From assembly GCA_006738865.1 (NCBI GenBank), contig AP019701.1, forward strand, positions 4,150,001 to 4,214,000: 64,000 bases of DNA, in the 5' to 3' direction. The notes below the pieces were generated by a model that saw only the letters and a program-made list of their open reading frames with translations, was not told the origin of the DNA and searched no databases. The number at the start of each line of letters is the position of its first letter. The stretch's first letter is position 1. Below are positions 2,510-7,025 of the stretch, in pieces. Made by a program: the position numbers and the translations under genes. The stretch comes from Allostella sp. ATCC 35155. GTDB taxonomy: Bacteria; Pseudomonadota; Alphaproteobacteria; ATCC43930; Allostellaceae.

Positions 2510-3109
2510 ATGAGCTACACGACCGAAGACATAGCGCGCAGCCTGCGCTCGGCGCGCGAGGCCAAGGGGATCAGCCAGCGAGAGCTGAGCCGCCAGGCAG
2601 GCGTGCCGCAAGGGCACATTTCACGAATCGAGAGCGGTGCCGTCGATCTCCGGTTGTCGAGCCTGATCGCACTCGCTCGCGTTCTCGATCTCGAGCTTGC
2701 CCTCGTCCCCCGCCGGGTTCTTCCGGCCGTTCAGTCCATTGTCCGCAGCAGCGAATCCGCTCCGCGGCAAGGCGAGCATTCGCGAGAGGCCGACCGGGAA
2801 CTCCGGCGCCTGCGCGACGCAGTCGTTCAAGCCGCGATGACCGATCTCGCCTCTGACGAGCTGGCTCTGCTGCAGCGTCAGATACGGGAGTTCGGGCATT
2901 TCCGGCTTTCGGCCGCCGACCTCGCGCCCATCCATGCCGCTGCCGACGCCTTCCGGACATATCTCCGGAACAAGGGCGGCGGCGAGCCTTTGCGGCAGGC
3001 TGTCGCCGTCCTCGCGCATTGGCGCAATGCACGCGCGCATGACATGGCGCCCGCTGCGCCCGAGCCCCAGCGCCCGGCCTACAGCCTGGATGAGGCCGAA
3101 CTTGCCTGA
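2510..3109 (+). CDS. hipB: HipB-like XRE-family antitoxin/repressor with long C-terminal extension
   Basis: 199 aa. Residues 5-70 form an XRE-type helix-turn-helix (IARSLRSAREAKGISQRELSR, then GVPQGHISRIESG), as in HipB antitoxins, which repress their own operon and neutralise HipA. Typical HipB is about 90-100 aa; here a further 120 residues follow, Arg/Glu-rich around 85-110 and then an Ala-rich helical segment ending in YSDEAEL-type sequence (YSLDEAELA). The gene overlaps hipA by 20 bases and lies directly after a palindromic operator. The extension may bind HipA, but that is inference. It could equally be named an XRE regulator. Confidence 0.85.
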   Translation: MSYTTEDIARSLRSAREAKGISQRELSRQAGVPQGHISRIESGAVDLRLSSLIALARVLDLELALVPRRVLPAVQSIVRSSESAPRQGEHSREADRELRRLRDAVVQAAMTDLASDELALLQRQIREFGHFRLSAADLAPIHAAADAFRTYLRNKGGGEPLRQAVAVLAHWRNARAHDMAPAAPEPQRPAYSLDEAELA

Positions 3110-4328
3110 CGTCGACGTCCTCGAGGTCCTGCTTTATGGCGAGCCGATCGCCACGCTCACGCGCGTTGGCGGCGAACGGATTCTCTTTGCCTTCCATGAA
3201 TCGTACGGCGCGAACGGCGCGCGCCCGGTCTTGAGTCTTGGATTCAAGGATCGGTTCGGCGAACTGATCACCGACTTCCGGCCGACGCGGACGCGGCTGC
3301 TGCCGTTCTTCTCGAACCTTTTGCCGGAAGGGCACATGCGCAGCTACCTCGCCGGTCTGGCGGGCGTGAAGCCGGTGCGCGAGTTCTCCCTCCTCTGGGC
3401 GCTCGGCATGGATCTGCCCGGCGCCGTCACCGTCCGGAGCGCCGACACCGAGGGATGGCTGCCGGGCGCCGATGACGATGCCCTGGATGACGCTCATCGG
3501 CGCGCGCACGTCCTGCGCTTCTCCCTTGCGGGCGTCCAGCTCAAGTTCTCTGCGGTGATGGAGACAAGCGGCGGGCTGACCATTCCCACACGCGGCGTCG
3601 GCGGCTCGCAGATCGTCAAGCTGCCCTCCGCGCAGTTCGAGGGCGTGCCCGAGAACGAGTTCTCGATGATGACTCTCGCCCGGCTGGTCGGCATCGACGT
3701 TCCGCCGGTGCGCCTCGTGGACCCGGATTCGATCGCCAATCTGCCGGAGGGCATCGGCCGGTTGCGCGGCCCTGCGCTCGCCATCGAGCGCTTCGACCGC
3801 CTCGGCGACGGCACGCCCGTGCATATCGAGGATTTCGCCCAAGTCTTCAGCGTCTATCCCGAGAGCAAGTACGAGAAGGCGAGCTACCGCGGCATCGCCT
3901 CGGTCATCGCCGCCGAGGGCGGGACGCGCGATATTGCGGAGTTCGTCCGGCGTCTCGTCTTCAACACCCTCATCGGCAACGCCGACATGCATCTCAAGAA
4001 CTGGTCGCTCATCTACCCGGACCGGAGAACCGCGGCGCTCGCGCCCGCCTACGACCTGGTCTCGACCATCGCCTATCTCGCCGATTCCAATGCGGCGCTC
4101 ACGTTCAGCCGCACCAAGCGCTTCGACGGGCTGACGGATGACGAGCTGGCGCATCTCGCGGCAAAGGCGCGCCTGCCGGAGCGGCTTGTCCTCGATACGG
4201 CACGCGAGACCGTGTCGCTGTTCCGCGAACATTGGCACGCACAGAAGGCGCACCTGCCGCTGGCGACCGCCGCAATCGAGATCCTGGAAGCGCATATGCG
4301 CACGCTGCCGATCGCGGCTCGCAGATAG
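3090..4328 (+). CDS. hipA: HipA-like Ser/Thr kinase toxin
   Basis: 412 aa from ATG 3090, which overlaps the antitoxin stop; longer upstream reading of the frame is inside the antitoxin gene. HipA toxins phosphorylate glutamyl-tRNA synthetase (or other targets) and arrest growth. The N-subdomain (LYGEPIATL ... GFKDRFGELITDF, residues 10-70) is followed by LAGVQLKFS (147-154), corresponding to the Gly-rich loop region, QIVKLPS, and the kinase core. The catalytic loop is NADMHLKNWSL with Asp299, and the metal-binding Asp322 is in PAYDLVST. All key residues are present, so it should be active. E. coli HipA is 440 aa. Confidence 0.9.
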   Translation: MRPNLPDVDVLEVLLYGEPIATLTRVGGERILFAFHESYGANGARPVLSLGFKDRFGELITDFRPTRTRLLPFFSNLLPEGHMRSYLAGLAGVKPVREFSLLWALGMDLPGAVTVRSADTEGWLPGADDDALDDAHRRAHVLRFSLAGVQLKFSAVMETSGGLTIPTRGVGGSQIVKLPSAQFEGVPENEFSMMTLARLVGIDVPPVRLVDPDSIANLPEGIGRLRGPALAIERFDRLGDGTPVHIEDFAQVFSVYPESKYEKASYRGIASVIAAEGGTRDIAEFVRRLVFNTLIGNADMHLKNWSLIYPDRRTAALAPAYDLVSTIAYLADSNAALTFSRTKRFDGLTDDELAHLAAKARLPERLVLDTARETVSLFREHWHAQKAHLPLATAAIEILEAHMRTLPIAARR

Positions 4329-4383: not shown

Positions 4384-5187
4384 CTACGCCTCCAGACGCT
4401 CGACCAGTTCGCCGGTCGTCGAGAAGCAGGCGGCGACGACGGGGCCACCCTGGCCGGCTCCGGCATCGAGGATCGCCGCGTGCGCGCCGATCCGCACGCC
4501 GCGGCCGCGCCGGTCGTAGCCGGCGACCACGAGGCGGCAGCCGGAAAACGAGTCGTCGAGGGAATCGATGCCCGCGCCGGTGCCCCACCAGAGCACGTCG
4601 CCCTGGGCGTGGAGCGGGCGGTCCGGCGCCACGTCGGCCGAGACGAAGAGCAGGTTGCCGTCGTCGGTGACGGCGGCATGCCGGAGGCTGGTGGCAAGGG
4701 CCGAATGGCCGTCGGCCGCCTGGATCTGGGTGCGGAGCGCCGCGGTCCAGCGCATCAGGGAGCGCACGCCGTCGCGTGCGGCGGCCAGCCCCTGCTCCTC
4801 CTCGCTGCCATAGGCCGCGATCGTCGCCGCAACACCCTGCCGCAGCATCCAGGCCAGCACCTCGCGCGGATTGAGCGCGAACTGGATCTGCAGCAGCTTC
4901 TGCCACATCTCCTCCTGCGCGCCGCGCAGATGGACGACGTCGGCGGCGAAGAAGCCGGGCCGGGCGATCACTTCGCGACGGAACCGGATCAGCTCGTCCA
5001 CCGTCCGGCGGACCGCCGGGCCGTGCCCGAGATGGTTGCCGAGATAGACGATGCGGTCGCCGAGGGCGAGGCGCGGCCAGATCAGGTCATGCACGCGCTC
5101 CAGCCGCGCCGCCTCGCCATGGATCGTGCCGACCGCCCAGACCCGCCGCGTGGCCCGCAGGGTGGCGATGCTCGATCGGTCGCGCAT
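4384..5187 (-). CDS. Phosphatase-fold protein (PPP/metallophosphoesterase-like) lacking the canonical metal ligands
   Basis: 267 aa. The layout is that of a PPP-family Ser/Thr phosphatase, but every canonical motif is altered. GDIHG reads GTIHG (Asp replaced by Thr21). GDYVDRG reads GNHLGHG (both Asp lost, residues 50-56). RGNHE reads RGAQE (88-92). The later VHAG and VHGHT His motifs read VSAD and VAGYD. The surrounding scaffold is kept, including DRIVYLG before motif 2 and the terminal LDAGAGQGGPV resembling LDTGAGYGGP. The ORF is intact, so this looks like a conserved pseudo-phosphatase, perhaps a binding or scaffold protein. It starts 67 bases after carD on the same strand and may be co-transcribed with it. 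Confidence 0.75.
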   Translation of the reverse strand: MRDRSSIATLRATRRVWAVGTIHGEAARLERVHDLIWPRLALGDRIVYLGNHLGHGPAVRRTVDELIRFRREVIARPGFFAADVVHLRGAQEEMWQKLLQIQFALNPREVLAWMLRQGVAATIAAYGSEEEQGLAAARDGVRSLMRWTAALRTQIQAADGHSALATSLRHAAVTDDGNLLFVSADVAPDRPLHAQGDVLWWGTGAGIDSLDDSFSGCRLVVAGYDRRGRGVRIGAHAAILDAGAGQGGPVVAACFSTTGELVERLEA

Positions 5188-5254
5188 GGCTGGCCCGTCC
5201 TCCGCAGTCTAGAGCCCGATGGGGGCGCCAACCTCCGGCGGACGGCGCCCGGCG

Positions 5255-6415
5255 TCAAGCCGCGGCTTGCAGCAGCTTCTCCAGCCGCTGGGTCGCCTGA
5301 TCCTCGTCGATCCGCTCGACCGCCGCGAGTTCGCGAACCAGGCGATCCAGCGCCGCCTGATAGATCTGGCGCTCGCTGTAGGACTGGTCGGGCTGGCCGG
5401 CATTGCGATGCAGGTCGCGCACCACCTCGGCGATCGATGCCGGATCGCCGGAATTGATCTTGGCTTCGTACTCCTGCGCGCGCCGGCTCCACATGGTGCG
5501 CTTGACGCGCGACCGGCCGCGGAGCTTGGCCAGGGCGAGGTCCATTTCCTTGCGGCTGCTGAGCCGGCGCAGGCCGGCGGCGCGGACCTTGCCTACCGGC
5601 ACGCGCAGGGTCATCCGGTCCTTCTCGAACTGGACGACGAAGACCTTGAGGATGTGGCCGGCGATTTCCTGCGTCTCGATCGCGGTGATCTTGCCGACGC
5701 CGTGCGTCGGATAGACGACATGATCGCCGACCTCGAACCCGGGCCCCTCGGCGGAGCCTTCGACGACCTTCAGGGGCGCCGGCTTCGGCACCGGCTTCAG
5801 CAGTGGCGGTGCAAGCACGGCCTTGGGCTGGCCGACGGGGGGCTGGCCGGCGCCGGGCGCGGCACCGACCACGGCCAGCGCCGGCGGCGCGGCAGACGCC
5901 TTCTTCGCCGCTTCGGCCGGCTTGGCCGCCTTGGGCTCGATCGCCACGGCCGCCTTGGCCACGGGCTTCGTCTTCACTTCCGCTTTCGCCGCCATTCCGC
6001 TTTTCGTTTCCGGTTCGGGTTTCACAGGGGGCTCGGCCTTCGCCGGGCCGGATTTCGCCTTGGCGGGCCGCTTCGCCGTGCCGCTCGCCGCCGGCATGTC
6101 TTGGGGCGCCGCCGCCTCGGCGACGGCAGTCGCCGCTGTCTTGGACTTGGCCATCGCTGGGGACTGCTCAACCTTCCTTGACTGTGCGGCCGGGGAATGC
6201 TTCACCTCGGCAGCCTGGGCGGCGGGCGGCCGCGCACGCTTCGTCTTGGGGATCGCCTCGACGACCTGCGCCTTCTGGGCCGCGGTCGGCAGTTGCGGCT
6301 TGGCCGCCTGGGTCGCCTGCCTCGGTGACACGCGCGATCGGGCCTTCGCCCCGGACTTTCCCGCCGTCCCCTCTCCGGTCGCCGGCGTCTCGACCTTGTG
6401 GGCGGATTTCTTCAT
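5255..6415 (-). CDS. carD: CarD/CdnL-family RNA polymerase-binding regulator with 226-residue Lys/Ala/Pro extension
   Basis: 386 aa, against about 165 for typical alphaproteobacterial CarD. Residues 227-386 are the complete family: the Tudor-like RNA polymerase interaction domain (FEVGDHVVYPTHGVGKITAIE) and the helical DNA-binding domain (SRVKRTMWSRRAQEYEAKI). CarD binds RNAP beta and stabilises promoter open complexes, typically at rRNA and growth genes. Residues 1-226 are rich in Lys, Ala and Pro and look like histone H1 tails. The start at 6415 has AAGG five bases upstream. An internal ATG at residue 88 (6154) is an alternative and would still leave a long tail. Confidence 0.9.
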   Translation of the reverse strand: MKKSAHKVETPATGEGTAGKSGAKARSRVSPRQATQAAKPQLPTAAQKAQVVEAIPKTKRARPPAAQAAEVKHSPAAQSRKVEQSPAMAKSKTAATAVAEAAAPQDMPAASGTAKRPAKAKSGPAKAEPPVKPEPETKSGMAAKAEVKTKPVAKAAVAIEPKAAKPAEAAKKASAAPPALAVVGAAPGAGQPPVGQPKAVLAPPLLKPVPKPAPLKVVEGSAEGPGFEVGDHVVYPTHGVGKITAIETQEIAGHILKVFVVQFEKDRMTLRVPVGKVRAAGLRRLSSRKEMDLALAKLRGRSRVKRTMWSRRAQEYEAKINSGDPASIAEVVRDLHRNAGQPDQSYSERQIYQAALDRLVRELAAVERIDEDQATQRLEKLLQAAA

Positions 6416-6689: not shown

Positions 6690-7025
6690 TCAGCGTTCGC
6701 CGGGCTTGTCGCTGAAGAAGCGCGCGAACTTGTCCGACGCGCCCTTGAAGGAATCGGCGTCCTCGGGGGCTTCGCCCTTGCGCGTGATGTTCGGCCACTG
6801 GCCGGAATAGTCTCGATTGAGCTGGAGCCACTTCTCGGCCGCACCGTCGCTGTCGGGCAGGATCGCCTCCGCCGGGCATTCGGGCTCGCAGACCCCGCAG
6901 TCGATGCACTCGTCCGGGTGAATGACGAGCATGTTCTCGCCTTCGTAGAAACAGTCCACCGGGCACACCTCGACGCAATCCATGTACTTGCACCGGATGC
7001 AGGCTTCGGTGACGACGTAGGTCAT
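6690..7025 (-). CDS. fdxA: 7Fe ferredoxin FdxA
   Basis: 111 aa, the standard length. Cluster motifs are [14 protein letters not shown] (near residue 9; one 3Fe-4S plus ligands) and [12 protein letters not shown] (near 40), followed by the family's C-terminal extension with [16 protein letters not shown]. It is a low-potential electron carrier in the cytoplasm. In alphaproteobacteria fdxA normally sits between the S4/helicase genes and carD, as here, except for an SDR gene placed upstream. The 274 bases between this gene and carD (6416-6689) hold no ORF and probably contain the carD promoter. Confidence 0.96.

Follow-up and report, generated by a model that had tools for sequence, protein, structure and literature searches.

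Phosphatases of the PPP family hold their metals through six ligands, namely the Asp and His of GDxH, the Asp of GDxxDRG, the Asn of GNHE, and two later His residues. The Vps29 subunit of the retromer is an inactivated member of the calcineurin-like fold. Dpb2 of DNA polymerase epsilon is likewise an inactivated calcineurin-like subunit and has a structural role (PMC7308368). In both, a dead metallophosphoesterase fold has been retained and serves a larger machine in a structural or binding capacity. Other pseudophosphatases, such as human STYX, act by binding, competition, or scaffolding (PMC10211241). Most known pseudophosphatases are eukaryotic, and no conserved bacterial example with a PPP fold was found in the literature searched. 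That search, with most subscription journals outside its range, returned no description of bacterial pseudophosphatases or carD-linked metallophosphoesterases, and no phosphatase is mentioned in a paper on Caulobacter CdnL.

The gene analyzed here lies in a window, i.e., the whole stretch of DNA under analysis, of 64,000 nucleotides from Allostella sp. ATCC 35155 (Stella below). An earlier note had described it as an intact phosphatase-fold gene next to CarD whose metal ligands were all replaced, and had proposed selection for a non-catalytic role. Its product differs from Dpb2 and Vps29, which are eukaryotic, belong to other branches of the superfamily, and have known partners, in being bacterial and PPP-like. 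STYX has a Cys-based fold that is structurally unrelated, and it is not bacterial. The features of the locus are listed in the table.

Features of the carD-linked locus in the window (positions on the window; motifs in brackets are the forms of active enzymes or relatives)
Feature	Position	Strand	Remark
Pseudophosphatase gene	4384..5187	(-)	267 aa; predicted PPP/calcineurin-like fold without catalytic residues
Motif 5, VAGYD (active: VHGHT; most of the family: VRGFD)	4513..4527	(-)	Metal-ligand His to Y224
Motif 4, VSAD (VHAG)	4633..4644	(-)	Metal-ligand His to S183, lost in Stella
Motif 3, GAQE (active: GNHE)	4912..4923	(-)	Asn to A90; catalytic His to Q91
Motif 2, GNHLGHG (active: GDYVDRG)	5020..5040	(-)	Bridging Asp to N51; catalytic Asp to G54
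Motif 1, GTIHG (active: GDIHG)	5116..5130	(-)	Metal-ligand Asp to T21; H23 kept
GGAGG, Shine-Dalgarno-like	5199..5203	(-)	11 nt before the ATG of the pseudophosphatase gene
carD/cdnL-type gene	5255..6415	(-)	386 aa; Pfam CarD_TRCF_RID and CarD_C at aa 227-378
fdxA-type ferredoxin gene	6690..7025	(-)	Conserved neighbor upstream of carD

The reading frame starts with ATG and contains no internal stop. Single-sequence searches of the protein against Pfam, NCBIfam, and PDB gave nothing useful. Pfam Metallophos (PF00149) did not match it at E <= 1, and its gathering cut-off was not reached; only 3 of 70 relatives matched this model, with a best E of 0.0037. An NCBIfam match to HsaD (E 0.017) was far below the HsaD cut-off and was rejected, and no Pfam or NCBIfam model naming the family was found. 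A profile built from the 70 relatives gave weak matches to the PPP-type phosphatases 2qjc, 4j6o, and 5vjv. An AlphaFold2 model built with the relatives reached a pLDDT of 94.4 and a pTM of 0.92. By VIA-align, the solved structures closest to this model were 5vjv (Rhizobiales-like phosphatase 2; Z 21.7 over 222 residues at 3.1 A), 4j6o (the phosphatase domain of C. thermocellum Pnkp, CthPnkp; Z 21.3), and 2qjc (Z 21.1; a putative diadenosine tetraphosphatase), with 1g5b, the lambda phosphatase, at Z 18.8. The modeled fold is thus of the PPP (calcineurin-like) type, and the scaffold and frame are preserved as had been noted from the sequence.

The whole-domain fold (Z 18-22), the motif order, the Glu of GNHE, and the conserved glycines are shared with 1g5b, 5vjv, 4j6o, and the ApaH/ALPH enzymes 2qjc and 2dfj. 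By this fold and motif order, the protein belongs to the PPP/calcineurin-like superfamily by homology. Compared with those phosphatases, it lacks the catalytic His (of GNHE) and Asp (of GDxxDRG) as well as five of the six metal ligands, and the extra helical segments are the family's own. It does not have the full set of ligands and catalytic residues of an active member; rather, it is a phosphatase homolog without catalytic residues that is conserved by selection, i.e., a pseudophosphatase. The genome also encodes an intact PPP paralog (L031, G000:C1:5002213-5002887), which is ~32% identical over most of its length and matches Pfam Metallophos at E 5.6e-13. It differs in that GDVHG, GDYVDRG, GNHE, VHAG, and VHGHT are all intact. 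No carD was found in the 8 kb surrounding this paralog.

The motif columns were read from an alignment of the pseudophosphatase with intact PPP paralogs. The five substituted motifs, GTIHG (aa 20-24), GNHLGHG (50-56), GAQE (89-92), VSAD (182-185), and VAGYD (221-225), were exactly as first reported. The statement that every metal ligand had been replaced holds for five of six, since H23 of GTIHG is kept. The losses in VSAD and VAGYD are present and partly specific to Stella, as most relatives have VHAG and VRGFD at these places. Stella has diverged further than its family in this respect, S183 and A222 not being the usual family states.

Across 144 distinct family sequences, G54 was found in 98%, Q91 in 96%, and R222 in place of His in 91%, and in none of the 144 were more than two of six key residues (D21, D51, D54, N90, H91, and H224) retained. 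These nearly fixed changes (D54 to G, H91 to Q, and H222 to R), which recur next to carD in Alphaproteobacteria, fit one ancestral inactivation. The motifs of 22 sampled paralogs, used as a contrast set, were intact. Other columns were counted over 100 distinct sequences: position 21 was A or S in 94, D225 was present in 89, H23 was kept in 84, H183 in 76, and D51 in 17. D51 is retained by a Magnetospirillum-type branch, with GDYLG and VHAG motifs in a Magnetospirillum homolog, and H23, H183, and D51 sometimes occur all together (L054, L057, and L061). Weak binding of one metal is therefore possible in that branch. No new conserved cluster of His, Asp, or Glu was apparent in the pocket motifs of the family alignment. 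Residues that the family conserves and active PPPs do not have fall into two groups: G54 and Q91, joined in most members by R222 and D225, lie in loops of the former pocket, and W95, K97, L98, R146, W147, and T148 lie in a helical segment. They look as would be expected of a new interaction surface.

Orthologs were found in 135 of 386 genomes drawn evenly from the Alphaproteobacteria; the family is class-level and not an oddity of one genome. In this sample, a wide score gap separated the orthologs (E <= 1e-52) from active PPPs (E >= 1e-20). No catalytically intact ortholog was found among the alphaproteobacterial orthologs examined. Outside the class, a 397-genome sample of the phylum gave weak matches alone (E >= 1e-12), which score like active PPPs and were placed by score, not by motif reading. 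The search of plasmids (PLSDB) gave no match.

A tree was built with the catalytic columns removed and with only the nearest PPPs as the active set, and in it one fully supported branch splits the dead from the active forms. This topology indicates that the dead state is inherited through one clade of Alphaproteobacteria. Pairwise dN/dS, proposed earlier as a check, was 0.14, 0.15, and 0.19 for three Stella pairs (dS 0.45-0.66), and these values indicate purifying selection on the gene. The conserved part of CarD had a dN of 0.01-0.03 at similar dS in the same comparison. Together with the class-wide losses and the linkage described below, the dN/dS values bear out the proposed selection for a non-catalytic role.

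The neighborhood of the gene is conserved as well. In the window, carD lies 67 nt upstream on the same strand, and the median distance from the carD stop to the pseudophosphatase start codon was 77 nt. The stretch separating the two genes in the window shows no terminator-like site on its coding strand, and they are probably co-transcribed. The relatives' orthologs were 47-89% identical to the window protein, and all 37 loci examined first adjoin carD. A named set of 80 separately fetched loci, partly overlapping the first set, covered Magnetospirillum, Telmatospirillum, Oceanibaculum, Terasakiella, Kiloniellaceae, and others, including the congener Stella vacuolata ATCC 43931 (L051); carD adjoins the gene in 76 of them. 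Of the 133 genomes in which both genes were found, 115 have carD immediately before the pseudophosphatase gene, in the same orientation. In the remaining ~18, the two genes lie apart or on different contigs, some of these perhaps through contig breaks.

The gene order is fdxA-carD-pseudophosphatase, followed by rpoH (sigma-32) in about one quarter of loci. The family thus occupies the place x in an fdxA-carD-x-rpoH cluster, following carD in the same orientation. Among 111 loci, fdxA was upstream of carD in 91, and in 26, which are spread over the tree, the pseudophosphatase gene was directly followed by rpoH in the same orientation; three examples of rpoH scored above the NCBIfam cut-off. In genomes without the family, fdxA was upstream of carD in 24 of 30 loci, and rpoH followed carD closely in at least 10 of 30 (flanks of 1.5 kb). 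Since both orders also occur where the gene is lacking, the carD-rpoH interval is read as part of an old cluster in which the pseudophosphatase gene was gained or lost. No intact phosphatase was found downstream of carD in the 30 carD loci of family-lacking genomes, within ~1.5 kb on each side; homologs with intact motifs at the same locus, which would have spoken for a decayed copy in Stella, were thus looked for and not found.

The linkage has exceptions. In one genome (L176, G076), the gene has kept rpoH beside it and is separated from carD. In another (L184, G129:C52:43000-52000), it is directly downstream of fdxA with carD missing between them; a single CarD was found in that genome, on another contig and only 46% identical. 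Together with the other unlinked genomes, this case indicates that the gene can be kept without linkage to CarD. CarD in turn does not need the pseudophosphatase, as it occurs without the latter in many Alphaproteobacteria. Unlinked copies and genomes with CarD alone mean that the pseudophosphatase and its candidate partners, CarD and RpoH, do not require each other.

The protein is very probably an ancient pseudophosphatase under selection. The whole statement, that an ancient dead PPP protein co-located with carD has a transcription-linked binding role, has about an even chance of being right. The functional part of it, in which the protein would regulate or scaffold without catalysis in connection with CarD, RpoH, or RNA polymerase, is plausible, at an even chance or slightly below. 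According to this proposal, the binuclear metal site would have been lost from an ancestral PPP phosphatase, and the protein would act by binding and not by catalysis. The former active-site loops (Gly54, Gln91, and mostly Arg222 and Asp225) would have become a conserved interaction surface, to which the family-specific helical segment (W95-K97-L98...F103, R146-W147-T148, and extra residues around F69-R70) would add. Since Stella has lost both R222 and H183, the proposed pocket is only partly shared by the family. The putative partner would be a component of the transcription apparatus, with CarD, RpoH, or RNA polymerase most likely; gene linkage points first to CarD and RpoH. A more specific version, in which the class-wide family is a dedicated accessory of CarD, RpoH, or RNA polymerase and binds a phosphorylated partner or nucleotide through a rebuilt metal-free site, is doubtful. 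If the pseudophosphatase does bind CarD, RpoH, or RNA polymerase, then this nameless family, present in about one third of the sampled alphaproteobacterial genomes beside RNA polymerase regulators, would be an unrecognized part of alphaproteobacterial transcription control.

The selected protein may instead have a function unrelated to transcription, with its place after carD being an inherited order useful for co-expression alone. The genes of the locus are thematically mixed, as it also holds a Suv3-like helicase gene and fdxA without an obvious common theme, the gene is kept in the genomes where it is away from carD, and carD and rpoH adjoin each other even without it. However, the linkage, orientation, and post-carD place have outlasted high divergence (family identity ~50%), and where carD is absent from its side, the gene can stay beside rpoH or fdxA, as in the two genomes above. 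We regard this reading as rather unlikely. A metal-free sensor, whose former pocket would bind a phosphate-bearing ligand and relay its level to the transcription factors of the operon, is less likely still. Dinucleotide polyphosphate, (p)ppGpp, or a phosphopeptide are putative ligands, the pocket has new, near-fixed polar residues (Q91, R222, and D225), and the nearest folds include ApaH-like Ap4A hydrolases and a polynucleotide 3'-phosphatase. However, ligand specificity does not follow from similarity to the nearest fold, and Stella itself has A222.

Continued hydrolysis by a changed one-metal or metal-free mechanism is improbable. The frequent retention of H23 and H183, at times together with D51, would suit such an enzyme, but the catalytic His and Asp are replaced by Gln and Gly in almost every member, and the window protein has one of the six ligands and no new conserved cluster of His, Asp, or Glu is apparent in the pocket motifs. 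The recent decay of a working phosphatase in this one genome has little in its favor other than the motif losses and an internal TAG in one distant ortholog match (G361), and it has a negligible probability: the same losses occur in every ortholog examined, the dN/dS ratios are low, no intact copy was found at the locus, and the family survey across Alphaproteobacteria rules it out. The preferred reading remains that of an ancient, selected pseudophosphatase with a possible binding role in transcription.

Several minor observations were made at this and related loci. Apart from the distant match with the internal TAG (L159, G361:C24:144131-144910), the ortholog matches listed with it were open. 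In the same genome, ~1.4 kb separates carD from the pseudophosphatase gene, and the same applies to its congeners G078 and G288. CarD of the window has an Ala/Pro/Lys-rich, histone-H1-like N-terminal tail, with the CarD domain starting from ~aa 227, and some relatives (e.g., L051, L058, and L091) likewise have long frames preceding this domain. Downstream of the pseudophosphatase gene, window positions 2510-4328 (+) encode an HTH_3 protein followed by a HipA protein (HipA_C and Couple_hipA), which resemble a hipBA toxin-antitoxin pair. In Stella, this convergent pair stands at the place taken by rpoH in many relatives.
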